Shown here: positions 182 through 62,216 of the stretch, one piece after another
Layout: each line of letters begins with the position of its first letter
Position numbering within the stretch: the stretch's first letter is position 1
Origin: Branchiostoma floridae
Taxonomy: Eukaryota; Chordata; Leptocardii; Amphioxiformes; Branchiostomatidae
Reading direction: 5' to 3'
Assembly: GCF_000003815.2 (NCBI RefSeq)
Contig: NC_049982.1
Span: 30,974,407 to 31,038,406, forward strand
DNA length: 64,000 bases
The notes under the pieces: generated by a model
What the model was told of the DNA's origin: nothing
The model's input: the letters and a program-made list of their open reading frames with translations, nothing else
The model's database searches: none
Position numbers and translations under genes: made by a program

Positions 182-361
182 AACAACGTCTTGGGTTTCT
201 CATCTCCAACTGGCACCGCCGAAATTCAAAACATCCAGTTCCGGGACCCCTTCAGCGAGTTCGCCCGCTCCATCCGCGACTGTGTCGTTCTACGAGACTT
301 CAGGGTCCTCGTACAGAGAGTGCACCGGGACTTCACACTACTCAGCCAAAAGTACCAATAG
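182..361 (+). CDS. Last exon of a candidate IL-6/CNTF-type cytokine (5' part outside window)
   Basis: A pyrimidine-rich acceptor ending TTTCCTCAG at 181 opens a 59-codon phase-0 exon ending in TAG. The product would be secreted and signal through a class I cytokine receptor if the family call holds. The end of the peptide (FARSIRDCVVLRDFRVLVQR, then VHRDFTLLSQKYQ) is amphipathic and aligns with the last exon of the complete gene at 11396-15451: both start near an [ML]GF motif, share RDP, an RD..VV..F..L core and D.T.L near the end. In CNTF and CLCF1 the receptor-binding helix D has the same place and pattern. The upstream exons lie to the left of the window, so signal peptide and other helices cannot be checked. 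An unrelated helical protein is the alternative; the paralogue match makes coding very likely, the family name less so. Confidence 0.62.
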   Translation, partial: NNVLGFSSPTGTAEIQNIQFRDPFSEFARSIRDCVVLRDFRVLVQRVHRDFTLLSQKYQ

Positions 362-2378: not shown

Positions 2379-3293
2379 ACTGGTAGCACATTGAAATTGA
2401 TGTAAATATGTATATACTATGTAATGTTATGTGTATGTGTACCAATGTAATTGTGTATGTTTTAATGTATGACCCCAGGAAGAGTAGTGGATGCACATGT
2501 GTATTCACTAATGGGTGTCATTTTAACAATAAACAATAAACAATAAATCAACGTACCCACAGAGAAGTGATCCAACGCATATAGTTATGTAAGGTCAAAA
2601 ATAAATGCTGGTATATTCCATATCACATTTTGATTACAGATAGAAATTACATAAGCGCAAATATCTTCATAAAATGAGCAAAGAAATACAATAGTACACA
2701 TTTAGTACGCGTTTTTCATCACCTATTCAAAGGTTGATCAGAGTGAGAAATACAGTGTTAAAACTTCATCACGCAGATATGAGATTAAAAAGTGTGTGTC
2801 CATTGCCGATCGACACCCCTCCTGGGGCCTTCAAAGATAGTGTTGGCAGGTTTTTGCTAGCTATAGGGTTTATCGGGTTACTCTAGAAGTAGAGGCGCTT
2901 GTTGGTATTGACGCTTTTATCGGGCTTTCTTCAAACAAAACGTAAAAGAAAACAGAAAAGAGAAAGCCCTATAAAATCATCTAAAATACGTAAAAAAAAA
3001 CAACCAGATGCGAACCTCTGCTTAGGAAATTAGTCGGGTAACCGAAAAAAATATACTTTTAAAATGTTCTCAAGGTCACCATGTGCCCAGTACTGCGCTT
3101 CAAATATAAATCGCTAGAAGGTGCACCTAATCATGCAGATATTAGGGTTTTCATTCTCCTGTGTCATTAAGGTTATAGCAACTGAACCATGGTACGGAAG
3201 CATATCTAAGTCACTTTTCTTAGCGAAGCTTTACTTTAGAAAACGTAAAACTCACGGCAAAATTGTTTGAATTGTTGAAAAGCTTAAAATTAA

Positions 3294-3831: not shown

Positions 3832-4450
3832 TGTTACGTCAATTTGACCTGAGCTCCCGGTAATCCACGTGTCTGGTTGCCTATCTTGTCGAAAGATCTT
3901 GAAATCCATCAGCGATTTAGTCAGGTTTTCTCATGTGCTCAAGTAACGTTGTATAAAAGTTCTAAATCAGAAATCAACTGGCTGATTTTTTTATATTTTT
4001 TTATTCAACATCAAAGTACAGAACAGGACAGAGAGGTAATACACTCTAGCAGTACGCTGATATTCACATCACCTCTCAAAAAAAAAGATAACTGACAAAA
4101 AACAATAAATGACAATATCAAAACAAACAGTTCACAGCTCAGCTATTTACATATAAGTCAGGTTACAAGGTAGTTGCAAAACGTTTCGTATGTACAATAT
4201 ATAACTGGGTTAACTATAAGATGCTGCAGTTTGTAGAATGTGATAGGAAAGGTGAACCCAACAATAGTAGATGGATACGGGCTGATTCGGATAACCTATT
4301 GAAGTAAAGAGTATTGCCTAGCAGGTTCTGTAGATTGCCGAAAAAATTAATTCTGTATTGTTGATATGTAGGGCAGTATGACAAAAAATGGCTGATTAAT
4401 AACAACCAACTGGAACCTTTCTGGCCATTATAAATGTGTAAATGAATGAT

Positions 4451-4553
4451 AGCCTGAGTACCATCCTCCGTAGTGACCGCCCGCTCAATACTTTTGCTTA
4501 ACATTGCTAACCTCGGATATCCAGCGGTAACAACGGAGGATGGCACTCAGGCT
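4451..4553. repeat. Small inverted repeat (foldback)
   Basis: AGCCTGAGTACCATCCTCCG at 4451 is matched in inverse by CGGAGGATGGCACTCAGGCT ending at 4553. The hairpin is about 100 bp and borders the GGAT minisatellite. Confidence 0.5.
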
Positions 4554-4599
4554 AGATGAATGACGGAAGAAATGAAGGAATCAATGGAAGTATGAAGGA

Positions 4600-4890
4600 A
4601 TAAAGGGATGGGTGAATGTAGAAATGAAGGGATGGATAGATGATCGAATGAATGAATGGATGGACGCAACGATGGAGGGATAAAGGAAGGATAGATAAAT
4701 GGATAGATGGTTGGATGGATGGATGGATGGATGGATGGATGAAGAAATGGATGGATGGATGGATGAAGAAATGGATGGATGGATGGATGAAGAAATGGAT
4801 GGATGGATGGATGGATGAAGAAATGGATGGATGATCGAATGAAGGAAGGAAGGAGAGAAGGAAGGAATGAAGGAAGGAATGGATGATTTA
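4600..4890. repeat. GGAT/GAAT minisatellite
   Basis: Dense GGAT, GAAT and GAAGAAATGGAT units. The period of four makes all frames open for a while, giving Ser-Ile-His-Pro or Trp-Met-Asp-Gly strings that are not proteins. Confidence 0.9.
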
Positions 4891-7931: not shown

Positions 7932-8532
7932 CTGCTCGGAGAGGAAGATCAGACAAAAAAGGCAGCCTGGTAACAATTCTGATCGGACCGAACATGGGCA
8001 TTTTACAGCCAGCCCTACCAAGGATATCCTTTCTGTAAACCTATTTTTCCAAGTGGACTTTCTGATAAAATAAAAGTTAAAACCAACCCCTTCAAATTCC
8101 GGGCGTGTATCAATAAACTGGGCGGGAGGGCAACAAACCCTGCACCGTATGGATGTCAGGGGTCTCGCGATGGTATAGTGTACAGTTTTATTGTGAAAAT
8201 CGTGACCTTTTTCGTATGTGTCGTATATCTGTCTTAGCTCTCGTGTCCTGTCGTAGATCTAGTCTTAAAGTTAAGATCCTTGATATTTGATAACAATTGT
8301 TTGTGAGCATGATTTCGAATATGGTTTCTTTTTAACTTGCTAGACTTCAGCTTTTAGTGCAATTCTCCCAAGAGGAGTATATCCAAATGCCAAAACAATT
8401 CAGACTTGACACAAAAGTCTGCAACGTTAAATATGTCAAAGATGCAAAGAAAAAGACGGCATGTAAGAAATGGGTCACGATTTTCCCATCAACCTCTGCT
8501 TGGAGAGACGGTATGGTGACCATCGCGGCAAT

Positions 8533-8731
8533 CCAGTACTGTAAATGCATTTAAGTTCACGTGGATTTAATTTTGCGTTAGCGGGAAAATAGAGTTTTTG
8601 CGGTGGTTTTAAGTTCACGGTAGCGCCATAGACTTTAGTTAAACATCATGATGGAAATTTTTTTGCGGTGGTTTAAAGGTCGCGGTGAAGTGGCCACCGC
8701 ATAAACCGCGAACATTTCTGCATTTACGGTA
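8533..8731. mobile_element. MITE with TACTGTAAATGCA ends
   Basis: TACTGTAAATGCATTTAAGT at the left is matched by TTTCTGCATTTACGGTA at the right, with a G-rich, TTTTTGCGGTGGTTT-containing interior. Non-coding foldback element. Confidence 0.55.
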
Positions 8732-10496
8732 TCTTGCAGAACGCGCGTAGACAACATTCCGTCACCAGTGGGGTGTTTGTCGGCCACATGTACCTAATTG
8801 GTTCTAAACGTCCTTGGCGATCGATTTGGTGACCTTATTTCGATCTCCAAGCAGATGATAGTATAGGAAAGGAAAAAATCGTGCCATATTCTTACGTTCA
8901 AATCTTTAAGCTTTGTCAATATTCGGCCTAGTCCCTTTCAACATATACATAAAAGTTTCCTACCCCTTATAACGAGATTTTTTCTTCAAACCGTTTGAAT
9001 GCACTTTATCTAGATAGGTACACATACAGAAAAAAAAGACATATGTACACATAAGCGAGGCCCACAACACACAAATTTAGATACACATTTACTTTACGTG
9101 GTGTGCTTTTAGAGAACAGTGAAGAATGCGCTAAGACAAGAATGTGCATTTGGAGAATGCACTTGTGATCTTACAAAGGTTTTTGTTTGATTTTGTAATA
9201 GAAAGCTTCGAAGACTGGTATGATTATATACTCTTAATGGAAACAATATTTAGCTTAGGCGAATCCTTGTAAGATCTATGAATTGTGTTACGTTCTATAT
9301 CCGCAAAAAAACTATTAGCATGTACGTTATATACAACAATGAAGTATGCTCTTCAATTGGGAAAAAGGTACGCTTCTATAAATTTTGTTACGGTCTATAA
9401 CAAGAAAATTAATAAGCCTGCACATTGTACAACAATGACAGAAATATCCTCTTCAATTGTAAACAAGATACGTTTCCTAGTGTCCCATATTTCTATAGCA
9501 CAAAACAAATTCATATTTCGTAGGCAATTATTAGATAGACCATGTAATATATGTATACGATCAACATTTTGTATCACTGTGATTGTACTTCATGAATTAT
9601 TAATTATCACAATGATCCGCGCTTAGCTTGAAAGACCATAAACGTATGTTAAAGTATTTCATAAATTCATTGATTAAACTGAACTTTAACGCTCTACATG
9701 TATTGATGTGAAGGTACGTGTATGGCGAATAATGCTAGAACTCTCTGTACCCCCCCTCCCCCTCGTTCAAGAAGGAGAGAAATTGCTTTGTCCCAAAAAA
9801 TAGATTGTTGTCTGGTTTCCTGCAATAATTAGCTAGAGGAGACATGTGGTTTAAAAATAGATTTTTTGGCTTAAATTAGAAATTTTGTTCTTTATTTAGC
9901 TCGTCCTTCGTTTGACATAACGAGCAGCGTCTCCTTTTTTGAAAAACTCCATACACCGAGAGTGTTTCTTATTAGTGAAAACAGCAGACGGCCGTCCTCC
10001 AAGGAAGCTAGAAATATTAATAGACTCAAATGCGCTAAAAATAAGTGCGCTGACAGAAAACGGAATTTATAATGCTGTCGGAAGACGAGGGCCCGCGGTG
10101 TATTAGACGTGGGATGGTACAAAATGGGGTCAACTAATACCGGTGGGGAGTGCGGGGGTATGTACAAAAATGCGGTCAGATACAGCGTCACTATACGAAG
10201 ACGACGTTTAAAACACACTTTTACAAACTATAAAACGATTCTCTTGGTCAATTGTTCAACTTTCACATACTTTGGATACTTCAGGCATTAGAAGCGCCCC
10301 CTACCATGCAGTTCATGAGAACAACTTTCAACACAGATTCGTTGAATATGGATGATTGCGGACTTGAAAAAAACTTACAAAAAAGATCGGTCGAAAAAGA
10401 AAAAAAGGACCCACTACGTCAACCTATCGGAAAAGTGGCGGACAGTATTATTCATAGATCTATAGTATACAGAAAACTGAGAAAAGGAACGGATAA
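8732..10496. other. Gene-free AT-rich stretch
   Basis: Only short unsupported ORFs and homopolymers (for example the C-rich tract near 9750-9765). I see no splice-supported exon, RNA gene or clear repeat ends. Confidence 0.5.
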
Positions 10497-10964: not shown

Positions 10965-11302
10965 TAGATCCAAAAAGTGCAATCTTTTTTTTTTTGGGGG
11001 GGGGGGGGGTAGAGGTTAAAGTTACTGCCATTTGGTCCTAGTCGGCATTCAAATTTCTTCAAGAGCCATGTAACGACGACCATATTTAGATGTAAAACAA
11101 GAATCTAGGCGATATATAAAAACCATTCGCTTGTTAGAAAAGGAAGTAGGTTGAAGAACTGAAAACAGACAAGTTGTTGACAAAGCTATCTGGTGGTGCG
11201 AAGTCACAGAAAGGTTTTGTGGGAGGGTCTAGTCCCGACAGGACATCCGCACACCTACTGCGTCGCTGATCAAAGACTCTATCCATCAACAACCTTCATT
11301 TC

Positions 11303-11345
11303 TATATAAAAACCTTCTTCGGTCATAATCCGCACTTAGTTCAGA
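11303..11345 (+). promoter_or_regulatory. TATA box and start region of the cytokine gene
   Basis: TATATAAA at 11303-11310 is followed about 27-30 bases later by TTAGTTCAGAACG, a plausible initiator. The first ATG is at 11396, giving a 5' UTR of about 55-60 bases. The spacing is that of a classic TATA promoter. The start site itself is inferred. Confidence 0.6.
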
Positions 11346-11395: not shown

Positions 11396-14300
11396 ATGTT
11401 TGTCAGCAGTGCTTCCTTTATAATGTCTGGTGAGTTGGAATGCTGTATAGATTCATTTTCTTACATATAAGATGTCTTTAAATGATTGTAACTCACTGAA
11501 TAAATTTGCATACTTGTGAATTTGCCTTCAAAAGGTAAAGGTAAGGCACGAGGTTTATTAGCCTCCGTTGCAGTCATTGAATGGGGCTGTTTTATCTTTT
11601 TATTTGGGGGGGGGGGGGTGCGATTTTCAACGTTGGCTATGTTATCTTGTGCCGGGAAAGGGAGTTTGCCAGGATAGGGAGTTTCGCTCATTTTCGGCAC
11701 TAGAGAACATAGCTAACAATGAATTCGGGAACCAACGCCACCTCCACCCCCTAAAATAAAAACTAGCCCTATTGGAAGACCGTAACGGAGTCTAGATCTT
11801 CACAATGTTTTGAAGTGCAATACATTTGGTTATTTTTGCTGTGTTGATTTTAAAAATCATAAGACTGAAATGTAACACATGTCGTATGTTTTTATAGGTT
11901 TATATTTGATGGCGTCGGGACTTCTGCTATTCCTCGTACCGTGTGTAACAACTCGCAGTCTACGACCAGTCCGGGACGTTGAGAAGACGCCGTGTCAACT
12001 GTTTACCGACATGTACACGATTACCATACGACTAGCGCTAGACGTCAACAACACGCATTCTGTTTTGGTGAGTGTTTCACTTTTCTGTTCCAAAATTTAT
12101 TTTTCTCTGCCCTTTTTTTCCCCATATCTAACCCTCTCTACATCTATATGTACACAAGTCATCGTCACTGTAAAACGTTACAAATTTTGGTACAAATTAT
12201 TCAAAAATGAAGCCAAATACGTCTTGGCAGGAAAGTTCATCTGTTTTGGTAAACAAAAGTCATTGGAAGTTTTGTAATAATAAGTCTTTTGTTCAGAATG
12301 CATTTTCTACATTGTATTATCAAGGAGGTTTTTACCTCCTTGGTTTAATTGAAACCAAGACCATTCATGTAAACGATTTTTCGAAGAAATATAGAATAAA
12401 TTTGTAAAGAAAATTTTAAGTTCTTTTTCCTATGTAGATCATGTCAACCACTTGCTTGAATCGATTTGCATATAGCGAGCTATTCAAAGAATTTGCGCTA
12501 ATTCTAACCAAAAGCGTTTATCATCTTCTTTTCAGACTGAAACATACGGGGGCACAGCGTCGGTTGCGGGAAGTTTCGGCTACGGATTTACCCTAGACAG
12601 TCTGGATACAGTATTGCGGATGCCGTACAGAAACTGGACAAAACCCGGGGTAGGTACCGATATGTGATAACATGTGCATAATAGGTATCATATTTAAGGA
12701 TAGGGAATAGTTTTTGGGACAGTCTTGGTTCAATGACGTCAATACAAAAATGGGGGAGAAGCCTCCCTTATAAGTTAAAAATAACCAAGACGTCTGGTTG
12801 AACGAGGGTCTCTATTGAGGGACCTGGCAAATTTAGGACGGCCAGCGACGCTTACCGGTAAATAAAGAAATATAGGTAACTGACAAGTGTATTTTTACGC
12901 GCTATGCTAGATTTGGGGACTACAATTGGTAAAATAAGGCCTCGAACAACAAGTGACTTTCATTGTGACTTTTGCGCAACGATAACAACGTTAGCGTTCG
13001 AGTTGCGTCCCTTACGCAATGATCTATAAATGCTATACTTATGTTATACTTAACAACGATTCCCGAACAATTCAGGGCATTGCTTATCATGCATATTGAC
13101 GCCGAATTCGAGTATATCTACTTAGATTGTCATTTGAAATATCCGCGGCATGTAGATATTTAGCAACTTAGCAACAAATCTCAGTTTTTGTTTTGTTATA
13201 AGGTTGTAAAACATGAGCGCAACACCATTTCATCTACTCGCTACCATATGTGATACTATATCTCAATAGCAGATCTAGACACCCGACTGTTAGAGTGTAG
13301 TTATCAGCGAGGAGTTTATACGAACAGTATCAGATAAGCTCCTTGCTCTAACATGGGTCAAGGGACATATGGCTTATGTAACTAATTAGTACCATCTGCA
13401 GGCGAATTTGCTTACCGCAAACTAAGGTGTCCCTTGAGAGTTGGCTGAGATGCTAGAAAGTTGGAGCCTCAAATACGAAGTTGCTAAAAAATGTAAAAAG
13501 AAAAGTATTTTGAAAGGGAGTAATTAAATTGTGAAGAACGCTTGTTCACCTTTATCCGGGGGTAACCTATATCCGCTAAATCGGAATATTCAGGGATATC
13601 AGGTCGACGGACGGTGGTTTCAAAGCACAGTATTTTGAAAAAAAAAGCAATTTCAAACTACCGCCCTACATGTTTTTTTAAACAACGGATATAGGTTACC
13701 GCCGCGTATAAAGGTGAATTAGCGTTAAAGTGCAGATGTGTCTTGATGCTACATTGCAGTGTATGCTGGATCCTGACCGTTGAGTTTTTATTTCCACAGT
13801 ACCTTTTCGAGTGTCGACAAACCAGAGGCAACGGCACGTGTCCTCCTCCACTTAACTACACCGTAAGTACAACAAAACTTGTTTGTAGAAAACTACTGCG
13901 ACGCTGGGAGGGGGTACTCTTGTGACGTCACTTCATGGCTAGTCACACATTGGGGAATGTGAGCTGGAAATGCAGTTTACGTTTCATGTTCGAACAATAG
14001 GGGGCGCTTCGTCCGTAATGAACTTTTAGTATTTCCATATAACATAGCGTTATGCATATTACCCAAATAACATTTTGCCACTATTCTTTGTCGTCCTTTC
14101 TTGAACAAGTCAAACTAGTTCGATACTTGTAGAAGTGTCACAAGTGCGGTAGCCTTGAGTGTAGTTTCCAACTTGGTATTTAAGTGTCTAGCTACCACAA
14201 AAGAGTCACTTTGTTCACTTCTTAAATACAGGAATAAAGACTTCTTGGCTCAGAATGCCACTTCTTTGGGTCACTACAATTGCTGTTACAACGTTTATGG

Positions 14301-15451
14301 TGTCTAATTTGGAAATTTAGACATCTTATTTGTTTTTACTCGTGTAGTTTGTTCGTCCACTCGTATTCTATTTGGTGCATGCAGTGGATGTCATACATAA
14401 AATTTATTTTCTTTGTCCTAAGATGTTTATCTTTTTATCCCTAAACAGGTCGCAGAAAAAGTGAATAGATTCCACACAGATTTGAGAACGTTCCGTACAT
14501 ACCTACACGAGGTTCGGGACGACGAGGCAGAAGGGGAGGGTTCCGATACGGCGTTACTCGAAGTGATGACTCAAACAACCAACAGAATGGAGTCGCTGCT
14601 GACAAGCATAAGAATAACGGTAAGAAAAAAAAAAACAACTTATCAAGGAAGCTAATTTGTTTTGATAGTAATCAATACTAAACTTTCTTCCAACATAAAG
14701 GTGTACAAAGATGTACAAAGATTAAGTTTTCAACGACTGTCTGTCGCCTTCTTAAGGGTCAATAATGACCGATCACTTCGAAACGTAAACTCAAGAGTTA
14801 CAGACATGCGATCTTGAACATACGTGACGTCAGCAATTGGTCAAACGTGTCAGGAAGTTTATATTCCCCCGTTTCAGTCTAGTAAATGCTAGAGACCTGG
14901 AGTGCTGAAAAAATCTATAAAAAATCGGAAAAGGAATTCCGATTCCTTTTCCATTGGCTACGATATATTACATTACGCATGCGCAGTGCCGGGCTTGTTT
15001 GGTACCAAAACTTGAAATATTCATATATAAGAAAATTGACGATAACTGGCAAAAACATTATCAAAGTCATAAAATAAAGTGTACTGTTGTTATAATGGTT
15101 TAATGTCGATATAGTCATTTGTTTAATGTCATTGCCCATTCACACTTTACAATGTATTTGAGTTTGCTAGATACCGTACATCCTGTAAGTGTAATTTTTG
15201 CGTTATCATCGAAAGAAAAATGTATTTTTTTAAACAAAAATTTATTTTCGATATCTCTACAGGCGCAAGCCATGGGATTCGCCATCTTGGATGACGTCCC
15301 AACGGGAGTCATGACGTCAACAGAAAGGGATCCAACCGGAGAGCTGCTGAGACGGTCACGTGACCAGCAGGTCGTCTGGGAGTTTCTGTGGTATCTTCGG
15401 TGGGCGGCGAGTGACATCACGTGGCTAAAGCACAGACATTGTGAACAGTAA
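11396..15451 (+). CDS. Candidate IL-6/CNTF/CLCF1-type four-helix cytokine, six exons
   Basis: Exons 11396-11429, 11898-12067, 12536-12649, 13800-13862, 14449-14619 and 15263-15451 give 246 aa. All sites are GT-AG; intron 1 is phase 1 and the other four are phase 0, the pattern I recall for IL-6/G-CSF-like genes. Residues 12-30 are a hydrophobic signal peptide (GLLLFLVPCVTTRS). The mature part has Cys44, 111, 120 and 244, and N-glycosylation sites at Asn62, 101, 117 and 125. Probable helices: A about 38-60, C within exon 5 (EKVNRFHTDLRTFRTYLHEV, then LLEVMTQTTNRMESLLTSIR), and D in exon 6 (QQVVWEFLWYLRWAASDITW). Exon 6 starts near MGF, and its order resembles the end of CLCF1/CNTF. It would act outside the cell through gp130-like receptors. 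The last exon has a paralogue at 182-361. Met16 is an alternative start. Gene structure is strong, the family moderately so. Confidence 0.75.
13548..13722. mobile_element. MITE of the 'TTCACCTTTATCC' family, copy 2 (in intron 3)
   Basis: TTGTTCACCTTTATCCGGGG and GTAACCTATATCC at the left; CGGATATAGGTTACC and AAAGGTGAATTAGCG at the right. It lies wholly inside intron 3 of the cytokine gene, on neither splice site. Confidence 0.6.
14100..14422. mobile_element. Partial Harbinger-like MITE in intron 4
   Basis: The interior matches 1720-2063 (TACTTGTAGAAGTG, ACAGGAAT, TTGGCTC blocks). It ends in GGATGTCATACATAAAATTT, the right TIR. The left end is missing. It stops about 25 bases before the exon 5 acceptor. 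Confidence 0.5.
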
Positions 15452-16330: not shown

Positions 16331-16470
16331 CGGTACAGACAGAAGGGAAGTCGTGTAAAGTGCCTTTCCCAAGGGCACAACGTCGGGGGCACGGTGGGAA
16401 TCGAACTCAGGACCCATAGATTCCGAGCCGAACGCTCTACCAGATACGCCACGCCCGACGCCACATGTGT
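16330..16470 (-). mobile_element. tRNA-derived SINE head
   Basis: The reverse strand reads like a tRNA: an A-box-like GGCGTATCTGGTAGAGCG and a B box GAGTTCGATTCCC. A full cloverleaf is not kept and the flank continues as SINE body. The same head recurs at about 31130-31205 and 20690-20780 (reverse), and the body at 18565-18970 and 19625-19900. Confidence 0.6.
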
Positions 16471-24256: not shown

Positions 24257-27200
24257 TTACGATCTTTTACCCATGCTGTAGCCGATGCTTATCCGTTTGC
24301 CGAAGTGTCTGCCGTACCCTGCATTCAGTCTTCCGAGTTTAGAGCCGGAACCTCCCCCTAGACGCTTCTTCAACGCCCTTCCGAAGATTCCCGCGTGAAA
24401 TACAGAATTGTCGTAACCAGAAGAACCCGTGCCGTCGTCTCCTAGACCCCACTTTTTCTGGACGGTCTTTTTGTCGGCGTCCCGTCCGAAGATTCCACCG
24501 TACGCTGCAGAACTGTCGTACCCAGAAGAACCCGTGCCGTCGTCTCCTAGACCCCACTTTTTCTGGACGGTCTTTTTGTCGGCGTCCCGTCCGAAGATTC
24601 CACCGTACGCTGCAGAACTGTCGTACCCAGAAGAACCCGTGCCGTCGTCTCCTAGACCCCACTTTTTCTGGACGGTCTTTTTATCGGCGTCCCGTCCGAA
24701 GATTCCACCGTACACAGCAGAATTGTACCCAGAACTAGAAGAACCCGTGCCGTCGTTTCCTAAACCCCACTTTTTCTGGACGGTCTTTTTGTCGGCGTAC
24801 CTTCCAAACACCCCGCCGTACGCAGCAGAATTGTACCCAGAACTTGAAGAACCTGTGCCGTCGTCGCCTAGACCCCATTTTTTCTCCATGTTCTTTTTGC
24901 CTGGAGTATAGCCACCGCCACCGTAACGTTTCTCCAGCGCCCGTCCAAACGCCCCTCCGTACACGGCCGTCTGATAACCACTGTCCGATCCACCACCACC
25001 CAAACCCCACTTCTTTTGAATGTTCTTTTTGTCGGTGTCCCGTCCGAAGATTCCGCCGTACGCATCAGAATTGTAGCCCCCAGAAGAACCCGTGCCGTCG
25101 TCACCTAGACCCCACTTTTTCTGGACGGTCTTTTTGTCGGCGTCCCTTCCAAATACCCCGCCGTACGCAGCAGAATTGTACCCAGAACTAGAAGAACCCG
25201 TGCCGTCGTTTCCTAGACCCCACTTTTTCTGGACCTTCTTTGTATCGGCGTCCCGTCCAAAGATTCCACCGTACGCTGCAGAATTGTAGCCCCCCGAAGA
25301 ACCCGTGCCGTCGTTTCCTAGACCCCACTTTTTCTGGACGGTCTTTTTGTCGGCGTCCCGTCCGAAGATTCCACCGTATGCTGCAGAACTGTCGTACCCA
25401 GAAGAACCCGTGCCGTCGTCTCCTAGTCCCCACTTTTTCTGGACGGTCTTTTTGTCGGCGTCCCGTCCGAAGATTCCGCCGTACGCTGCAGAACTGTCAT
25501 ACCCAGAAGAACCCGTGCCGTCGTCTCCTAGTCCCCACTTTTTCTGGACGGTCTTTTTGTCGGCGTCCCGTCCGAAGATTCCGCCGTACGCTGCAGAGCT
25601 ATCGTACCCAGAAGAACCCGTGCCGTCATCTCCTAGGCCCCACTTTTTCTGGACGGTCTTTTTGTCGGCGTCCCGTCCAAAGATTCCGCCGTACGCAGCA
25701 GAGTTGTCGTACCCAGAAGAACCCGTGCCGTCGTCTCCTAGACCCCACTTTTTCTGGACCTTCTTTGTATCGGTGTCCCGTCCGAAGATTCCGCCGTACG
25801 CTGCAGAACTGTCGTACCCAGAAGAACCCGTGCCGTCGTCTCCTAGGCCCCACTTTTTCTGGACGGTCTTTTTGTCGGCGTCCCGACCAAATATTCCACC
25901 GTACGCAGCAGAGTTGTCGTACCCAGAAGAACCCGTGCCGTCGTCTCCTAGTACCCACTTTTTCTGGACGGTCTTCTTGTCGGCGTCCCGTCCGAAGATT
26001 CCGCCGTACGTTGCAGAACTGTCGTACCCAGAAGAACCCGTGCCGTCGTCTCCTAGGCCCCACTTTTTTTGGACGGTCTTTTTATCGGCGTCCCGTCCGA
26101 AGATTCCGCCGTACGCAGCAGAATTGTAGCCCCCAGAAGAACCCGTGCCGTCGTCTCCTAGACCCCACTTTTTCTGGACGGTCTTTTTATCGGCGTCCCG
26201 TCCAAAGATTCCTCCGTACGCAGCAGAATTGTCGTACCCCGAAGAACCCGTGCCGTCGTCTCCTAGACCCCACTTTTTCTGGACGGTCTTTTTATCGGAG
26301 TCCCGACCGAAGATTCCGCCGTACGCAGCAGAATTGTCGTACCCCGAAGAACCCGTGCCGTCGTTTCCTAGACCCCACTTTTTCTGGACGGTCTTTTTGT
26401 CGGCGTCCCGTCCGAAGATTCCGCCGTACGCAGCAGAATTGTCGTACCCCGAAGAACCCGTGCCGTCGTTTCCTAGACCCCACTTTTTCTGGACGGTCTT
26501 TTTATCGGAGTCCCGACCGAAGATTCCGCCGTACGCGGCGGTATTGTCGTACCCAGAAGAACCCGTGCCGTCGTCCCCTAGACCCCACTTTTTCTGGACG
26601 GTCTTTTTGTCGGCGTCCCGTCCGAAGATTCCGCCGTACGCTGCAGAACTATCGTACCCAGAAGAACCCGTGCCGTCGTCTCCAAGACCCCACTTTTTCT
26701 GGACGATCTTTTTGTCGGCGTCCCGTCCGAAGATTCCGCCGTACGCTGCAGAACTGTCGTACCCAGAAGAACCCGTGCCGTCGTCTTCAAGAACCCACTT
26801 TTTCTGGACGGTCTTTTTGACGGTGTCCCGTCCAAAGATCCCGCCGTACGCAGCAGAATTGTACTCAGAACTAGAAGAACCTGTACCGCCGTCCCCTAGA
26901 CCCCACTTTTTCTCCACGTTCTTTGTGTCAGCGTCCCGTCCAAAGATTCCGCCGTACGTAGCAGAATCTTACCTAAATCGATAACCACATCGTGGCCCTC
27001 CTAATCCCCACTTTTTCTGGACCTTATTTTTATCGGCGTCCCGACCAAAGATTCCGCCGTACGCTGCAGAACTGTCGTACCCAGAAGAACCCGTGCCGTC
27101 GTCTCCTAGACCCCATTTTTTCTGGACGGTCTTTTTGTCGGCGTCCCGTCCGAAGATTCCGCCGTACGCTGCAGAACTGTCGTACCCAGAAGAACCCGTG

Positions 27201-28075
27201 CCGTCGTCTTCAAGACCCCACTTTTTCTGGACGGTCTTTTTGTCGGTGTCCCTTCCAAATACCCCGCCGTACGCAGCAGAATTGTACCCAGAACTAGAAG
27301 AACCTGTGCCGTCATCGCCTAGACCCCACTTTTTCTCCATGTTCTTTTTGCCTGGAGTATAGCCACCGCCGCCATAACGTTTCTCCGGCGCTCGTCCGAA
27401 CGCTCCTCCGTACATGGCCGTCTGATAACCACTGTCCGATCCACCACCACCCAAACCCCACCTCTTCTCAATGTTCTTCTTTTCCAGATCACGTCCGAAA
27501 GCTCCTCCGTACGTAGCTATCTGTGAACCGCTGTCCCATCCACCATAGCCACTGTCACCCCTTAAACCCCACCTCTTCTGAATGTTCTTCTCTTCCAAAT
27601 CACGTCCGAACGCTCCACCGTACATCGCGATATTCCACCCTCCCCAACCGCCGCCTCCACCATTTCTACCGTCTTCCCTTAGCCCCCATCTTTTCCTCAA
27701 GCTTCTTTTTGCCGTCACCTTATTCTCCTTCGCGTTCTTTGTGTCGGCGTCTCTACCGTAGAAGCCTCCTTGCGCCGCGACGTCGGAACCAGACGAGCTC
27801 GAACTACCCCACACGAAACTATCCCCACCCCAACTGCTACCTCCCCATCGTTTTTCAGGCTCCTGACGCTTTCTCAAACCACCACCCCACCAGTAAGGAT
27901 AAAAAGGAGCCCAGTGGTAATTACTGTTGTGACTTTCCGAAGGGTAGCTGTTGACCCCCCAGCGTTTCTGGACGTTGGTCGTCTGATCGGAAGCGGTCTC
28001 TGGGTCGGCGGAGACCAATGCACATGTCCCCGCCAGAGTGAGGAGGACGATCCCGTAGACGGTGCACACACCCAT
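24257..28075 (-). CDS. Giant multi-copy amidated-peptide precursor (about 33 units)
   Basis: ATG at 28075 begins MGVCTVYGIVLLTLAGTCAL, a clear signal peptide. An acceptor (CTTCTCTAG) lies just upstream, so the 5' UTR is probably spliced. About 33 units follow, mostly 35 aa (105 bp): W-G-L-G-D-D-G-T-G-S-S, a GYDSSAA-type stretch, YGGIFGR, DADKK, TVQKK. Every unit starts with Trp after KK or KR, and FGR is almost invariant. This suggests release of a Trp-to-Phe peptide amidated at Gly, assuming single-Arg cleavage. Classic signals also occur: GGGGYTPGKK twice, GYGRHFGKR and ISIGYSMGKR near the end. The frame is interrupted by one in-frame TAA at 26969-26971. The final TAA overlaps a strong donor (GTAAGT, minus strand, 24255-24260), so a further exon may exist. 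I cannot assign a known neuropeptide family; a secreted Gly-rich structural protein is the alternative. Confidence 0.72.
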
Positions 28076-28358
28076 TGCCGTGTCTGCTTCGCCTAGAGAA
28101 GTGAATGCATGAAATACATGAACTCGAGAGCTCATCTGACAGTGTGTTTACTTGGTAGAAATTAGTCTTGATAAAGATGACCTGTAATTTCCTGCACAAG
28201 AAATTGTTGACTGAACTGACCATCCTTGTCACAGAAGCAAAATTAATTTTCCATTCCTTAACAAAGCATGGAGTTCATCAGTGGAAAATGTGGGGAAGTC
28301 TACTTGTTTTGGAAACAGTTCAAGTTTATTCATGATTAAAGACTTTTATTGTATACTA

Positions 28359-41200: not shown

Positions 41201-44200
41201 TCCCCCGGGGCCCTGTCGGATGTACCGCCGGCGTTGAACACTTTTACGCTGTAGAAGTCCTGGTTGAGGTTGATCTGCAAGCCGTTGTCCTGGAGACGTA
41301 GGTGACACGGTTGGGTTCCCAAAGAGCCGTGAAATCCTGCCATCCGCACTGTGCCTGTATGGGGAAGAGGGACGAAAACACACAACGCAACAGCCCGACC
41401 GCTCTAAATTACCTGACACTTATTTCTCCTATTATCTTAAAGGTAATCTCAGATCACCTGTAGGACATATCTCGCTATATGTTCCTGAGGGTCTGTACTA
41501 TCTTAAACTCATAAGCACAACTAGTTCTATATCTCAAATTTAGCAAGAAAACCAACCAGTTCATCTAACGGTGAGCTCGCTCCCATCTGAATAAAATCCA
41601 GTCCCCGAAGTCTGGGTTTCCAAGAAGACGAATCACCGGACTACAGCCCTCTAACTACTCATTCCCCGAACTGGCTGGAAATCCGAATGGCCGAAACAAT
41701 GTTTTACTTCATAGAATACCGTCTACCAAGATTTGAAACATCGAGTGCAGAAATCCTGTTGCGCGCTGTCTGAATGATTCTACAGTCCCTGTCGGACTTG
41801 CCTCTATCCTATTTTGCCAGTTTCCATACCGATCGGGTGGTACACCACGATTGGCTCTAATCGGATATCGGTTCCGTTCCTCGTCATCAGGTTGGTCAGG
41901 TATAACTTCTACCGGGTCAGGTGGCGGAATATCAGGATTGTCCACCGGTACGTTCACGATCGGCGCAATGGGTACATTTACCGGTGCTACAGGTTCGTTT
42001 ATGAGTAAGACTGGTATTTCCTGATCATCGTTATCATCATCACTGCCTTCATGGTTACCCTCAGTATCATTTATTCCGTCTACAGGGATTTCATTAGTCG
42101 GTGGGTCACGCCTTTTTCTGCGTTTGACTTCTCGAGGGGCAAAAGTACAAGGTGTTAACATGTCACGGTGTAAGGTTCTTGTGGGGCCTTCTCCCCTTTC
42201 AGGCGAGACCACGTACACAGGCATATCTTCATTAGGCTGGCTATCGACCACGTGAGGTATAGCTTCCCATCTATCCTTTAGTTTATGCCTACCTCGAAAT
42301 TTCTTGTTTAATATCAAAACCCTTTCTCCTGGTAGTAATGGAGACGTTTTGGCAGTGCGATCATAATTCTTCTTCTGACTAGCTTTAGCTGCATCAGAGT
42401 GTTCTTTGGCTACATCATAAGCGTATTTATACCGTTTCCAATGATCCTTGACCCATTCGTCATAAGTCATTTCCTCGTCTTGTGTGTCATTAAGATCTGT
42501 CCCTAGCGTGAGGTCAATGGGGAGCCGTGCCTGTCGGCCAAACATTAGGAAGTACGGAGAGTACCCTGTAGTACTGTGAACGGTGTTATTGTATGAGTGC
42601 ACTAAATCAGGTAGATATTCTGTCCATCTCCTTTTCTGCTCGGATGTCAAAGTTCCTAACATGTTAAGTAGCGTCCTATTGAACCTTTCACACTGACCGT
42701 TCCCGGGTGCGTGATACGGAGTGGTTCTAGATTGGGCAGCTCCATACAATTTACATAACTCACGGATAGTGGATGACTGAAAGTTAGCGCCCTGGTCTGA
42801 GTGGAGCCTTCTAGGAAAACCGTACGGCATAATGAAATGTTTCCAAAGAGCTTTGGCTGTTGTGGGTGCTGTCTGGTCCTTGGTAGCCACTGCTACACTA
42901 AATTTGGTGAAGTGGTCTGTTATTACTAATATATTTTCATGTCCGCTGCTTGATTGTTCAACTTTTAAGAAATCCATGGCAACTATCTCGAGGGGAGCAG
43001 AAGTCTTTATGCTCACCAATGGGCTGCGATTGTTAGGGATTCGGGTTTTCCTTAGACAGCATCTTTCACACGTGCGAACCCAATGTCTGACATCTGCGTC
43101 CATGCCAGGCCAATAGAATCTCATGCGCAGCAAATCAATGACACGACTGGCCCCAAAGTGGCCTGCTTGACTGTGTACAAGGCTAAATACTTCCTGTTTG
43201 AGTGCAGCAGGAAGAACCAACTGCCATCTACCCTCCTGAGCAGCTGAGTCATAAGCTGTCCTATATAGTACGTCATTTCTCAAATGTAAGCGTTCCCATT
43301 GCTGTAGTACCTTATGCACGTCTGGAGTCTCTAGATTACGTTCTCGATCATTAGGGAGGCGACCCCGTTTCACATAGTGATGTACCCTCTCTAGAGTGGG
43401 ATCGTCTTGCTGCTGTTGTGCTAACCTTGTCTTAGTGTACCCTGACAATGGCGCACCAGGTTCCTGATCAGAAAGGGGTTCTTTCACTATCTTCTCTGGA
43501 AGGGTAGGTTTTGATGTAGGCCTGTATCTATCACAGAAAATTTTGGTTACCTGAGCCGTGACAGTCACCCTGTCATCACTTTCCTGGTCTACATTATTCC
43601 TGTCCGCGAGACGTGATAATATGTCTGCATTAGCATTATCTTTTCCTGGTCGATATTTGATCTCGAAATTAAAGTTGGCAAGTCTCGCCACCCAACGCTG
43701 TTCTATCGCACCTAGTTGTGCTGTATTAAGGTGAGCCAGCGGGTTGTTGTCGGTGTAAACTGTAAACTTAGAACCATACAAGTGATCCTTAAACTTCTCT
43801 GTTACGGCCCATTTCAATCCTAGCAGTTCCAACTTAAATAAACTGTAGTTCTCCATGTTCCTTTCCGCTGGTCTAAGTCCTCTAGAGCCATATGCAATAA
43901 CTTTCTCTTTCCCATCCTGCACTTGAGATAAAACTGCCCCAAGCCCTTCATGGCTAGCATCAATGTACAATACAAAAGGTAGGCTGTAATCAGGGTAAGC
44001 TAACACGTCGGCGCTCATTAAATGCTGACGTAAAGTATCAAATGCCTTCTGACAGTCATCTGTCCATACAAACGGTGGAGGGTTACGCTGATCTTTCTTC
44101 TTGCCTGCGGTTAACCGATGCAGGGGGGCGGCTATTTTACTAAAGTCCTTTACAAAACGGCGATAATAGGAACAAAAGGCAACGAACGACTTTACGTCTC

Positions 44201-47200
44201 TGCTGGTTTTTGGTACTGGCCAATCACGCAATGCGGAACATTTCTCTGGGTCCGTGGCTACTCCATCTTTCGAAACCACGTGACCTAAATACTTTACTCT
44301 TCTTCTGAACAAATGACACTTGTCTGGCCGAAGTTTTAATCCGTATGACTTGAGTCTAGTGAAAACTAAGTCTAGGCGGGACAAATGTTCGTCAAAATCT
44401 TTGGAGAAAACAATGATGTCATCTAGGTAAATAAGCAATATCTCGAGATTCTGGTCTCCTAGGCAACGCTGCATTAATCTACTAAATGTTGACGGGGCTC
44501 CGGTCAAACCCATCGACATGCGATCAAATTCGAACAAGCCGAACGGTAGGCAAAAAGCAGTCTTTTCTCGGTCCTTCTCATCCATTTTCACCTGCCAGTA
44601 CCCACTAGCTAAGTCCAGGGTCGAAAACAGGCTAGCCCCCTGCAGCGCGTCTAAGGATTCCTCGATACGCGGTAACGGAAATGCATCCTTATGTGTCTTT
44701 GCGTTAAGCTTACGATAGTCAACACAAAATCTTAAACTTCCATCCTTCTTACGAACTAGTACAACAGCTGATGCCCAGGGACTACAGCTCTCCCTGATCA
44801 CACCCTGTTCTAGCATATCATTCACATGTTGCTTGACTTCCTGGTACAGAGCGGGAGGAATTCTTCTGTAAGGCTCCCTGATGGGAGGTGAATCACCAGT
44901 TGGTATCCTATGAGTAACTGCATCCGTACAGCCGAAATCATGTTTATGTGAGGAGAACACATCAGAATGTTCATCTAGAAACTTTTCCAATTTGTGCTTC
45001 TGTTCTTCTGTTAAGTCTGCACCAGACAAGTCAACTTTAGGCTTAATACTAGTACTACTATGGACCTGGGCTTCTTCCTCCTTGGTACAGGAACGGAAGT
45101 CTACACGAATCTCATTCTGACTAACTTCTGCAAATTCTATGTTCCCCTGAGGTTGGACCTCGGCTTGGTACAACTCTCCCAAGACTGCATTGTGGCTTAT
45201 TCGAATGTCATATTCTGCGACATTGGCTACTCGGACAGGCACTCTGCCATGCCTAACTTGTGCATAAGTACGTGCTACAAGAATATCCCTGGGAAGACAA
45301 CCTGCTTCTGGGGGCTCAACTAATACGGAGTAGGGTTTGCCGTCTGGCCCAGGGCGTGTTCTACAAAATAAGATCATCTCATGTCCGGCTGGTACAGTCA
45401 CTCTATCTTTGCCGGCCAGACGTGCGAGACCTACTCGCCCATCCGCCCTAGCAAACGACTCTTGTTTCTTGATACACTTAATGGTTTCCTTCCATGCCTG
45501 GTCCAAATTTTGCTCCTCATCCTTAACATCTACCCCTGTTGGTTGGTCCCCGAATCCTTGCAAAACATTCATACCTAAAACACCAGGTGCTGGCCCTTCC
45601 CCCTCATCTTCTACAATGATTACTCCCCGTTTTGGTAACACTTTCCCCTTGAATGTGACATCTAATTCGCAATACCCAACGCACTTGATTGGCAGGCCAT
45701 TTGCCGCGGTTAACCTCAGCCAGCTGGCTGTGTCCTTCAGTCTTTCTCCGTTACTCCCAAAGTGCATTCTAAAACAGCTATGCGTCATGGTGGTTACTTG
45801 AGATCCTGTGTCAATCAAACACGGCACAGTTTTCCCCTCGAAGTTTACATCTCTTATTCTACACCCCCCTACTGTTCTACTTAACAAAGAATCATTCTTG
45901 ATACTATCTACTTGGTCTCTGCTGGATTCAGCTGCCTCCTGCTGCTCCTCAGAGTTTACTTCACTATTGATGCTTTTCACTATTGTGGAGTCGTGATCAT
46001 TTACTACAGCGGACCCTACTGTCTGTCCACTCCGCTTACCAGGGCCCGTGGTTGCGGAGTGAGTTAGTTTGGGTTGACCGCGGGATTTGCCAACCTTACA
46101 TCCTGACGTCCGTCACTTCTACAGTACCTCTCTATGTGACCCACTTGGTCACAGCGATTACAGATCGGCCGTCCCGAAGCAGGATCCCGCCTATTTCTGG
46201 GGAAAGGACCTGTCGGGCCGCGTGCAGCCTGATTGTTGACGTTCATGGGAGCTGGGCGCACAACTAGCCTAGCTATCTCCTTACGGATATCTTCTAGCGC
46301 TCTGGCAGTGTCCATTCGGAGACGCGACAATTCATCCGCCTCGCCTCCCATTGACATTTGCTGGGTCTGAACAGGCCTTGTACTCGCCCCCCACTCTCCA
46401 CTAAGATGGAAAGCTTCTTCCTTTATTTCTCGAAACGTTATAGGGTTATCGGCGGGGGCTCTCATAACCTCCCTTCGCAACTGCCGGCGAAGCCATTCAT
46501 CTCTTATGCCATCTAAAAACCTGTCTCTCAGGATGACGTCATTATCGGCCAAGGGCTCACCCCTCCGTCTATCTGCTCTCTTCAGTAACTCTTGTAGGGC
46601 CAGAGCATACTTTTGCAGGCTCTCACGTGACAGTTGAACACGGGAGTAGAACTGGCCCATTATTACTGACACAGGGGCGGTGTCCCCAAACGCCTCGATG
46701 AGCCTGTCCTTTAGCCTCTCGACATCCGCACGGTCGCCATTAGACAACACATTAACTTGTCTACGGGCCTCGCCCTCTAGCTGTCTATACAATAACCCGG
46801 CCCTGTGCCCTGCTGGCACGTTAAACAACTGGAACGCTCCCTCGACCTCGTCAATCCACTCCTCGACAGTCATACTTGTTCCTGTCCCCGTGAATTTTGG
46901 TAACTTCCTGTCAAATGGCGTGTACCCCAGTCCGACGTTTAAGCCAGCTAATTGTGGATTTGCAGGTACGTTCTGGTTAATCGGAGGGTTCGGATCTACA
47001 GGCGCGTTCGGATCTACAGGTGCGTTCGGATCTACGGGTGCGTTCGGATCTACTGGCGCGTTTGGATCTACCGGTGCGTTCTGACCATTCGGAACTTCAT
47101 CGTTTGCGTTCTGGTTATCCATCATGAATTACTAGTATGTCTCACACAAGAAATCTCAGAGCGGTCAGGCAAAAGCGTGTGTGTTTCCTCCTCAAACCCA

Positions 47201-55974: not shown

Positions 55975-57535
55975 TTACCATTCTTCGGATGAAGAGCTGG
56001 ATGAACTGACTGGACCGGGAATGCAGAGCGTTTTCCAGAGCTTGTTCCTTACCCCCCACTTGCCTCTGCGGAACATAAAGAAATGTTTTAACCCTATTCA
56101 GACCGGGGGGGGGGGGGGGGGGCTTTTGAGGCCTGGGCCCCCTTCTATGTGCTATAACGCCAAAACCGCTTACCCTAAAACCACAAAATTTTGTGAGTTT
56201 TCCCAAAAAATTTTTGGGAACAATTTTGCGAAGTTTGACAAATTTTCTATTTTTTCTTGGTGCCATGGCAACCATTTTTTGACAGGGAGTTTTGCCAAAA
56301 ACACAATTTTTGGTTCTAACCATGGATTTTTCCCATTTATTTGCTATATTACCGCGATTTTGTTACATAAATAAAATCTTATATTATTCCGCATATCTTT
56401 CCTAATTATATATGCCCAAATTATGAAAATTTGAGGACCTCCTCAGCCCCAAATCCAAAATGGGGGACCGAATGGCCCGATCAAAAATAACAGGCTAATT
56501 TTCCCTTAAAATNNNNNNNNNNNNNNNNNNNNNNNNNNNNNNNNNNNNNNNNNNNNNNNNNNNNNNNNNNNNNNNNNNNNNNNNNNNNNNNNNNNNNNNN
56601 NNNNNNNNNNNNGGTATCTCGCATCATATGCCTTCCAGAGGGATAATGCCAAGTATGTGTTCAGAACTTGATTTTACAAGCTTCCTGGGAGTATTTGAGA
56701 GTTGTACACATTTCAATGTACCTTTGAGTGTACTACTAACGTTATATAGCTAGAAGGTAAACATTACAGTAATACTGTAGAAGGTAAACAGTTTATCAAC
56801 AGAGATACAGACACTCTATTTGGAATATCCAGTTCTTTCGGACCCTCGCAATGACTAACGTTACATAGGGCAGCATGTTCCCTTGCTTTTCATGCAGAAA
56901 CAGGGTATACATCTACAGGGTTGTTAGTCCTGCAACTCTAACGTGTGTGAGGTACCTTCTCGAGACCATTTATTTTCAAAAGTCGTGTACAACCCCAACA
57001 GACTTGTCCGACCTTGGGTTGAACCTAAGTCTCCCAGCTACCACTTATCTGGAACAAGAAGATCAACTACCAATTGAGCTACAGGGACATCCCTCTGCTT
57101 GAAATGTTGTCTTTCATGTATACCTTACCTTTCCTCAGATGAACTAGATTCCTCAGATGAATCCAGAAGCTTGTCGCAAAACCACTCTTTCAGCCCACGT
57201 TTGCGGTACAGACTCCGTCGAAGCCTTTCCTCTCGCTGTAGAGTCTTCAAGTGTTTCTCACGGTTCTGAAACTTATGCTTTCCTTGCAAGGAGGTACCAA
57301 GGGACCTAGTCTCTTCCTCTGTTGCTTCTCCACCCGAAGTAGTCTCGGAGGTGTGCTCGCTGTCTTCTTCAGTTGACACTATTTCGTCGAACATCTTGTT
57401 GAGCATCTCCATTGCCTCTTCGTCCATGTCTTCAGCACCTGAAGCCCCGGCATCTTTGACTACCTGCCTTCTTTGACCAGAAGCAATGAAGGCAAAGGCC
57501 AAGATCGCTACTATAATCAGTTTCAGATCAGACAT
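55975..57535 (-). CDS. Peptide gene D: acidic propeptide with C-X29-C peptide, 165 aa
   Basis: Exons 57535-57129 and 56065-55975 join in phase 2. The start MSDLKLIIVAILAFAFIASG is a signal peptide; TTATGCAG just upstream of the ATG is the acceptor of a 5' UTR intron. The propeptide (about 21-110) is rich in Glu, Ser and Thr. At RKR (111-113) cleavage would free a C-terminal peptide starting GLKEWFCDKLL, with Cys120 and Cys150 and 29 residues between. Its second half (RNKLWKTLCIPG) comes from the last exon, which ends in a Ser run and EEW. The order of signal peptide, acidic propeptide, dibasic site and disulfide peptide suits a hormone or defensin-like antimicrobial precursor. I recognise no family. 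Gene E is a tandem paralogue. A 100-N gap lies in the intron. Confidence 0.7.
56106..56122. repeat. Poly-G tract
   Basis: Run of G following AACCCTATTCAGACC. The same lead sequence occurs at 48185-48200, so it belongs to a dispersed repeat. Confidence 0.8.
56513..56612. other. Assembly gap (100 N)
   Basis: Exactly 100 N within the intron of gene D. Any exon hidden here would be missed. Confidence 1.
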
Positions 57536-57744
57536 CTTCCCAGATATTCCTTGTACCTGCATAAGAAATATATGTACTTGCCAACACATAGATAGATTTC
57601 TTCTTCTTCGTAATTCCAAAGCAGCGCAATGTTGAATGTATGTAATGTCTAGCATTATCAAGAATGCTTTGGCAACACAGGCTCTACTACCAGTACTAGA
57701 GTTTGGAGGAAACAAGCTCTATGATGGCTACTACTACTACTGCA

Positions 57745-60981: not shown

Positions 60982-62216
60982 TTACCATTCTTCGGATGAA
61001 GAGCTAGAGCTGGCTGAACCGGGAAGTAGACCACCGGGAAAGCAGAACGCTAGCCAGAGATTGTTCCTTACCCCTCGTTTTCCCCTGGGCCTGGTTTGAA
61101 ACATGTTAGAAACAAAGAAATGTATAAATAAAAACGTCTAACGTGTACAATAATTCTACTTTGGTGAGTTTTGAACATGTGCACAAAGCTCTACATTACA
61201 ACCGCCTCGCAACAAAGCTTCCACAGTTCACTCGGTTTGTCCTTCGTCTCAAACTATGATATTAATGGTATACGTACAGATACGTTTTTTTACAACCTTG
61301 CTTAATTATTTACTACTTGAGAGTTCTACATGCTGTATGTTGTTTTGAGTACATGCATCGTGTCTTGGATAGAAGGGAAACATGAAAGTATAACAGTAAT
61401 ACTGTAGATGTTAAACTGTTTATCAACAGAGATACAGACACTTTATTTGTAATATCCAGTTCTTTCGGACCCCTGCAGTGACTAACGGCACGGCACATAG
61501 GGCAGCAAGTTTATCTGTTTTTAACGCAGAAGCGCTAGCAGAGTATATTTTTTACAGGGTTTGTAGTCCTACGACTCTAACGTATGTGAAGCACTTCCTC
61601 GAACCCATCTACTTCCAAAAGCCGTGTGCAACCCCAACCGACTTTCCGTACCTAGGATTGAACCTATCTTGGTCTCCGAGTTGCTAACTGGAACCAGACG
61701 CTTAATTGTGGGGTTATAATTTCTACCAGTTGAGCTACAGGGACATCCTTCTACTTGAAATGATGTTCGTTTATGTAAATCTAACCTTTCCTCAGATGAG
61801 CTATATTCCTCAGATGACTCCAGCAGCTTGTCGCAAAACCAATCTTTCATCGCGTCTTTGCTTAGCAGACTCCGTCGAAGTCTTTTCAAACGCCGTAGAG
61901 TCTTCGAGTGCTTCTCACGGTTGCGACACTTATCATGCTCTCCATCCAAAGAGGTACCTAGGGACCCAGTTTCTTCCTCCGTTGCTTCTCCACCCGAGGT
62001 AGTCTCGGAGGTGTGACCGTCGTCTTCTTCAGTTGACACCATCTCGTCGAACATCTTGTTGAGCATCTCCAGCTCCTTGAAGAAGTTCTCCAGAGCTTCT
62101 TCGTCCATGTCTTCAGCATTCGAAGCGCCGGCATCTTTCACTACCTGCCTTCTTTGACCAGAAGCAATCAAGGCAAAGGCCAAGATTACCACTGTAATCA
62201 GTTTCAGATCAGACAT
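60982..62216 (-). CDS. Peptide gene E: acidic propeptide with C-X29-C peptide, 177 aa
   Basis: Exons 62216-61786 and 61084-60982 join in phase 2. It starts MSDLKLITVVILAFALIASG (signal peptide), with an ATCCAG acceptor upstream for a 5' UTR intron. The acidic propeptide differs from that of gene D by an inserted NFFKEL-type segment and an extra Cys97. Basic residues RRLKRLRR (108-115) precede DAMKDWFCDKLL; the RKR of gene D is not kept, so processing may differ. Cys128 and Cys158 keep exactly the 29-residue spacing. The last exon encodes RGKRGVRNNLWLAFCFPG and ends in a Ser run and EEW, as in gene D. The donor GTTAGA is weaker than the GTAAGG of gene D. Function unknown; secreted. Confidence 0.7.

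Follow-up and report, generated by a model that had tools for sequence, protein, structure and literature searches.

The window analysed here is a 64,000-nucleotide stretch of the genome of the lancelet Branchiostoma floridae (bases 30,974,407 to 31,038,406 of contig NC_049982.1). It contains a six-exon gene, gene A, and the last exon of a tandem paralogue, gene B, whose other exons lie just upstream of the window. The proteins of both genes resemble the CNTF/CLCF1 branch of the IL-6 cytokines, to which they appear to be distantly related. The features of gene A, in window positions, are as follows.

11303 to 11311, plus strand: putative TATA-like box TATATAAAA, a pattern match 93 bases 5′ of the ATG.
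11396 to 11429, plus strand: exon 1, with the start codon and the N-terminal part of the signal peptide; the phase-1 intron that follows is common to paralogue B.
11898 to 12067, plus strand: exon 2, with the signal peptide core and presumed helix A; phase 0, the intron again common to paralogue B.
12536 to 12649, plus strand: exon 3, the A-B loop; phase 0, with a homologous exon in paralogue B.
13800 to 13862, plus strand: exon 4, 63 nucleotides with two cysteines and two sequons; phase 0, absent from paralogue B.
14449 to 14619, plus strand: exon 5, presumed helices B and C; phase 0, with a 36% identical piece in paralogue B.
15263 to 15451, plus strand: exon 6, the end of helix C, the C-D loop, helix D and the stop codon, with a homologous exon in paralogue B.

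When joined, the six exons encode 246 residues with no internal stop, and all five introns are of the GT..AG type, with phases 1,0,0,0,0. The exons, junctions, phases and stop-free product proposed in an earlier sequence-only reading of this DNA were thus reproduced exactly. The five donor sites have six to eight matches to the nine-base consensus, the five acceptor sites have 12 to 15 pyrimidines among 18 bases, and the G+C content is 0.51 in the exons and 0.37 in the introns. Of 115,000 placements of the exon pattern along both strands, 40, including the true one, kept it open. Upstream of the gene there is a second TATA-like pattern match, at 11113. A hydrophobic stretch at residues 11 to 25 (mean hydropathy 1.99) bears out the signal peptide that the same reading had claimed, the cleavage site being guessed, and because this signal is seen by hydropathy the product is predicted to be secreted. 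The four glycosylation sites of that reading were likewise found, as sequons at residues 62, 101, 117 and 125. Its count of four cysteines applies to the mature chain only: the full product has five (27, 44, 111, 120 and 244), of which Cys 27 falls in the presumed signal peptide.

A tblastn search with the gene A product over a 274-kb stretch (200 kb upstream, the window and 10 kb downstream) found one piece resembling exon 5 and one resembling exon 6, both of which belong to paralogue B. Coordinates beginning with L refer to numbered pieces of the upstream stretch.

Window 182 to 361, plus strand: last exon of paralogue B, with helix D and the stop codon.
L022:7406-7454, 7941-8125, 8572-8676 and 9607-9774: the other four exons of paralogue B, just outside the window.

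Paralogue B has five exons with intron phases 1,0,0,0 and a product of 228 residues, and BLASTP aligned it with A at 38 of 118 residues identical (32%; expectation value (E) 6e-14 in a two-sequence search space). In a MAFFT alignment made without knowledge of the introns, the four introns of B coincide in column (17, 80, 142 and 200) and in phase with A's introns 1, 2, 4 and 5, and B lacks an equivalent of A's exon 4. Over 208 codons, the identity between A and B at the three codon positions is 0.43, 0.57 and 0.31, the pattern expected under selection on the protein, and we take such selection as shown. These features bear on the possibility that gene A is an artefact of gene modelling or a decayed gene. 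The model is known from genomic sequence only and the divergence is high, both of which would fit such a view, but the shared intron columns and phases, the codon-position pattern, the canonical splice sites and the intact frame all contradict it, and we regard it as scarcely credible. Judged from these features, gene A is a real, protein-coding gene; the decisive support for the model comes from paralogue B, because it shares the intron positions and the protein-level pattern of conservation.

How are these proteins related to known cytokines? The family members in our comparisons were all human. In profile-profile comparison by hhalign, whose E values refer to one template and not to a database search, an alignment of A and B (A+B) matched one of CNTF, CLCF1 and CTF1 at 90.6%, with a score of 46.9 over 168 columns reaching from helix A to helix D; against CNTF and CLCF1 alone, the figure was 87.1%. 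None of 1,300 shuffles reached the score of 46.9: the maxima were 24.1 for 400 column shuffles, 28.1 for 400 shuffles of seven-column blocks and 24.5 for 500 block shuffles of the template, and the reversed alignment scored 15.0. In a matrix of eight class I sets, the pairing of A/B with the CNTF set was the highest of 28 pairs (87.1), followed by the pairing of the CNTF set with LIF/OSM (45.0). The placement on the CNTF/CLCF1 side of the IL-6 family made in the sequence-only reading is thus supported in both directions of comparison (90.6%, and 87.1% in the other). In one alignment, a common stretch precedes helix B, which reads LEWRNLGDEERM in B, LEVWRSLNDKLRL in CLCF1 and DQWSELTEAERL in CNTF, and a tryptophan of exon 3 of A is aligned with a tryptophan in B, CLCF1 and CNTF. 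A and B are most likely, as judged by these sequence comparisons, invertebrate members of the CNTF/CLCF1 branch.

Comparisons that start from single sequences or from profile hidden Markov models (HMMs) point in the same direction less strongly. The pairwise local alignment with CLCF1 was matched by 4 of 1000 shuffles for A and by 1 of 1000 for B, and the other eleven cytokines mostly stayed at the level of chance (EPO with B, 28/1000; CNTF with B, 62/1000). With an A+B HMM, CLCF1 scored above all 1000 of its own shuffles and the CNTF score was reached by 2 of 1000; the PRL and IL-11 scores were reached by 49 and 67 of 1000, respectively, and those of the remaining reported cytokines by more, apart from EPO and leptin, to which we return below. 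In the opposite direction, an HMM of CNTF, CLCF1 and CTF1 gave A 9.2 bits, a score that neither 2000 shuffles (maximum 5.5) nor 2000 shuffles of five-residue blocks (maximum 9.1) reached, and with a five-member HMM, which also included LIF and OSM, a single shuffle per set of 2000 reached the score. Across 5,501 open reading frames (ORFs) of the region, the two final exons of B took ranks 3 and 7 with the three-member HMM, and exon 5 of A took rank 9; alone, no one of these matches was significant. Among 24,736 Pfam families, B had one match, to the PRF family (PF06875; E 0.011; 15.7 bits) in its helix C-D part, which is a weak independent pointer to the CNTF/CLCF1 side; human CLCF1, run as a control, also had PRF as its best family. 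Human CTF1 scored 18.6 in Pfam, also under its cut-off of 23, and the curated-profile cut-off is not diagnostic of the family. A whole-genome search with the PF01291 profile found nothing, and this profile was equally silent in 14 of 14 control genomes. A match to an NCBIfam model (these being prokaryote models) with an E value of 0.11 was taken as chance.

The same comparisons bear on the alternative that A and B, as long-chain class I cytokines, belong to a different lineage or to one of their own (GH/PRL, EPO, leptin, IL-6/IL-11 or the amphioxus GH-like hormone) and that their likeness to CNTF/CLCF1 reflects deep shared ancestry only. The sets for LIF/OSM, GH/PRL, IL6/GCSF, IL11, EPO and leptin gave only 0.1 to 1.1% with A/B in the matrix, and 0.2 to 3.6% with five slightly different sets; the single Pfam match of B was to PRF; and the two printed primers for the amphioxus hormone, taken from an extract of PMC5376476, fit no exon of A, B or the possible third gene C described below with fewer than nine mismatches. 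This alternative draws some support from EPO and leptin, which stood slightly above most of their own shuffles with the A+B HMM, and from the structure search considered next, the rows of which mix CLCF1, prolactin, IL-27 and IL-11. On this evidence we consider another lineage unlikely, and the CNTF/CLCF1 branch remains our preferred placement.

The evidence for a cytokine fold from structure prediction is weak. An AlphaFold model made from the single sequence of the full gene A product (model 1) has a mean predicted local distance difference test (pLDDT) value of 46.6 and contains four helices, at residues 43-71, 126-154, 160-194 and 217-244 (lengths 29, 29, 35 and 28). The loops between A and B and between C and D are long and that between B and C is short, which gives this low-confidence model the long-chain pattern. 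When model 1 was compared by Foldseek with 350,542 chains, human CLCF1 ranked first, with a non-significant E value of 0.12, and 14 of the best 16 rows carried the titles of class I cytokines (CLCF1, prolactin, IL-27, IL-11 and CNTF, several of them mutants). A further alternative is that A and B are secreted helical proteins other than cytokines, the profile match being a convergence of amphipathic helices. It gains from the lack of confidence in the fold prediction and from a second model, of the mature chain only (model 2), which matches generic helical proteins. It is opposed by the plain and block shuffles, in which the composition and some of the local helix pattern are preserved and which never came near the real score, by the other four-helix cytokines, which did not score against A/B, and by the exon phases of A and B, which fit the pattern of class I cytokine genes. 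We therefore rate convergence as very unlikely.

Several results nevertheless weigh against a relationship to CNTF and CLCF1. First, the profile signal depends on a particular combination of members. Single-sequence hhalign comparisons with CLCF1 gave 4.5% for A and 5.6% for B; A+B gave 62.6% with CLCF1 alone, 13.9% with CNTF alone and 0.1% with each of CTF1, LIF and OSM; and the pairs CNTF+CTF1 and CLCF1+CTF1 gave 13.4% and 10.5%. Because the single members and the CTF1 pairings fall off in this way, the signal rests on CNTF and CLCF1 jointly. The single-sequence similarity of A to CNTF is not above chance. Second, Pfam had no match for A, and the PRF match of B lies below the curated cut-off of 22 and alone proves little, because gene C has an unrelated match at a similar E value (0.0096). 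With the A+B HMM, the scores of EPO and leptin were also rarely reached by their shuffles (20 and 34 of 1000). When A, B and A+B were searched against the PDB sequences, no cytokine was returned; these misses say little, because CNTF as a query did not find CLCF1 even at an E value of 1. Third, Foldseek gave no match at E 0.001 for model 1, and the query template modelling scores of the cytokine rows were only 0.17 to 0.25, because the model is not compact. In model 2 (pLDDT 40.8), helix A is mostly lost and a short helix appears instead at mature residues 12-18; its top Foldseek matches are not cytokines, IL-27 entries making up 2 of the best 16 rows. Fourth, FxxK at the start of helix D is a motif of the LIFR-binding cytokines (LIF, OSM, CNTF, CT-1 and CLCF1), and the aligned place reads LLRR (LxxR) in A and FARS (FxxS) in B; therefore, we do not expect A or B to replicate the LIFR contact directly. 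Weighing these points, we judge with good confidence that the product of gene A is probably a secreted long-chain class I helical cytokine, a CNTF/CLCF1-branch homologue, and that the lancelet has the gene in at least two tandem copies.

If this is correct, the mature gene A protein would form an up-up-down-down four-helix bundle, with helix A at about residues 43-71 and helices B, C and D at 126-154, 160-194 and 217-244. As a ligand, it would most likely use faces built by helices A, C and D to bridge gp130/LIFR/Domeless-type class I receptors, and this bridging would, by analogy with the family, activate JAK-STAT signalling. Exon 4 would place a segment rich in cysteines and sequons in the A-B loop, and this insert may separate the receptor specificity of gene A from that of paralogue B.

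It is possible that a third, very divergent tandem cytokine gene (gene C) lies further upstream. It was built by eye around weak matches and has phase-0 introns.

L021:1452-1751, 2984-3049, 4027-4197 and 4515-4712, plus strand: exons of the possible gene C.

As in gene A, a 171-nucleotide exon is followed by GTAAGA. The likeness of gene C to A+B is weak (matched by 29 of 2000 shuffles; hhalign 0.5%), its sole Pfam match is the unrelated one mentioned above, and its addition to A+B did not improve the match to CNTF (88.8%). No further copy was found by tblastn at E 1 in the 40 kb downstream of the window.

Of five neighbouring host ORFs, three were identified by Pfam, as a leucine-rich-repeat protein, as a C-type lectin and as a protein with leucine-rich repeats, TIR and ZU5; two had no match, one of which, about 196 kb upstream of the window, is SFI1-like by eye only. 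To our knowledge, none of these three kinds of gene is a neighbour of IL-6-family genes. The third is a Toll-like-receptor-like open frame of 1,047 residues (L009:9727 to L010:2867, plus strand), in which leucine-rich repeats accompany a TIR domain (E 1.2e-20) and a ZU5 domain (E 6.4e-21), a combination that is not known from vertebrate Toll-like receptors. The C-type lectin domain (PF00059; E 4.3e-13) is encoded at L019:2158-2682 on the plus strand, about 35 kb upstream of paralogue B. On the minus strand of the window, positions 24257-28135 encode a long secreted precursor with many KKWGLGDDGTGSSGYDNSAAYGGIFGRDADKK-type repeats between dibasic sites, which is neuropeptide-precursor-like and of which a 388-residue part matched nothing in Pfam above the cut-off, and positions 41709-47125 hold retroelement ORFs for gag and pol, with a reverse transcriptase match (E 1.1e-34) in the tested part. 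Small secreted tandem proteins with a common end motif K(E/D/S)WFC(D/N)KL, noted by eye, are encoded on the minus strand at window positions 57125-57715 and 61569-62216 and at L002:1371-1769; one of them was compared with Pfam and matched nothing above the cut-off. A common stretch, tttcccaagggcacaacgtcgg, occurs in opposite orientations at about 16335-16380 of the window and about 5220-5260 of L022; by eye, each lies in an apparent copy of a dispersed repeat. Scans for Rfam families and tRNAs found nothing in the window.

According to extracts of a 2026 survey (PMC13203501), the IL-6 family is defined by shared signalling receptors such as gp130, and its cytokines have been reported in vertebrates only; in this strict sense, A and B are candidate members. 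Amphioxus, according to an extract of a 2022 review (PMC9010856), has a GH-like cytokine together with several other type-I helical cytokine genes, which are quite divergent and are not named in that extract. That lancelets have helical cytokines is therefore not new in itself. Extracts of PMC9049855 and PMC7378365 make no mention of a CNTF/CLCF1-type gene in amphioxus, and none appears for lancelets in the titles and abstract openings among the matches listed from open-licence PMC, which is no proof of absence from print. On balance, we lean towards a model in which the IL-6 family is older than the vertebrates: a CNTF/CLCF1-like cytokine would have been present in the chordate ancestor and kept in lancelets as a tandem cluster, CNTF and CLCF1 would be closest to the ancestral form, and A and B would be the missing ligands of the gp130-like receptors of invertebrate chordates. 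With a located gene pair of CNTF/CLCF1 sequence likeness outside vertebrates, the origin of the family becomes testable. The use of two diverged tandem copies that jointly show a signal absent from either alone is, moreover, a usable method.

Class I helical cytokine genes have a general intron phase pattern of 1,0,0,0, which is that of B, and which A has as 1,0,0,0,0 with one extra exon that is not in B. With two exons in the CNTF gene and three in that of CLCF1, the six-exon layout of A is not that of either gene, which weakens the match to CLCF1 and CNTF drawn in the sequence-only reading. The count of three refers to human CLCF1, as given in an extract of PMC8780587. Among invertebrates, Drosophila Unpaired (Upd) is a putative helical ligand of a gp130-like receptor, Domeless, according to part of PMC7378365. 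The amphioxus GH-like hormone (GHl) is also a type-I helical cytokine, of 208 residues according to part of PMC9010856; judged by its printed primers, it differs from A, B and C, and the GH/PRL profile is likewise unlike A/B (hhalign 0.1%). The Plethodontid receptivity factor family (PRF) is the only Pfam family matched by B, below the cut-off, and is unmatched by A. CNTF lacks a signal peptide; it resembles A and B in the profile match over helices A to D, held jointly with CLCF1, in a W..L..AER stretch and in a phase-0 intron close to where helix A ends. Human CLCF1 differs in its exon number (three, against six in A and five in B), in its length of 225 residues, in FxxK and in having no exon-4 insert. 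Of the 12 cytokines, however, it is the one with which both A and B score best in pairwise comparison, and it is the top Foldseek row for model 1; further points in common are collinearity over helices B, C and D, the stretch LE(V)WR.L.D and a signal peptide.

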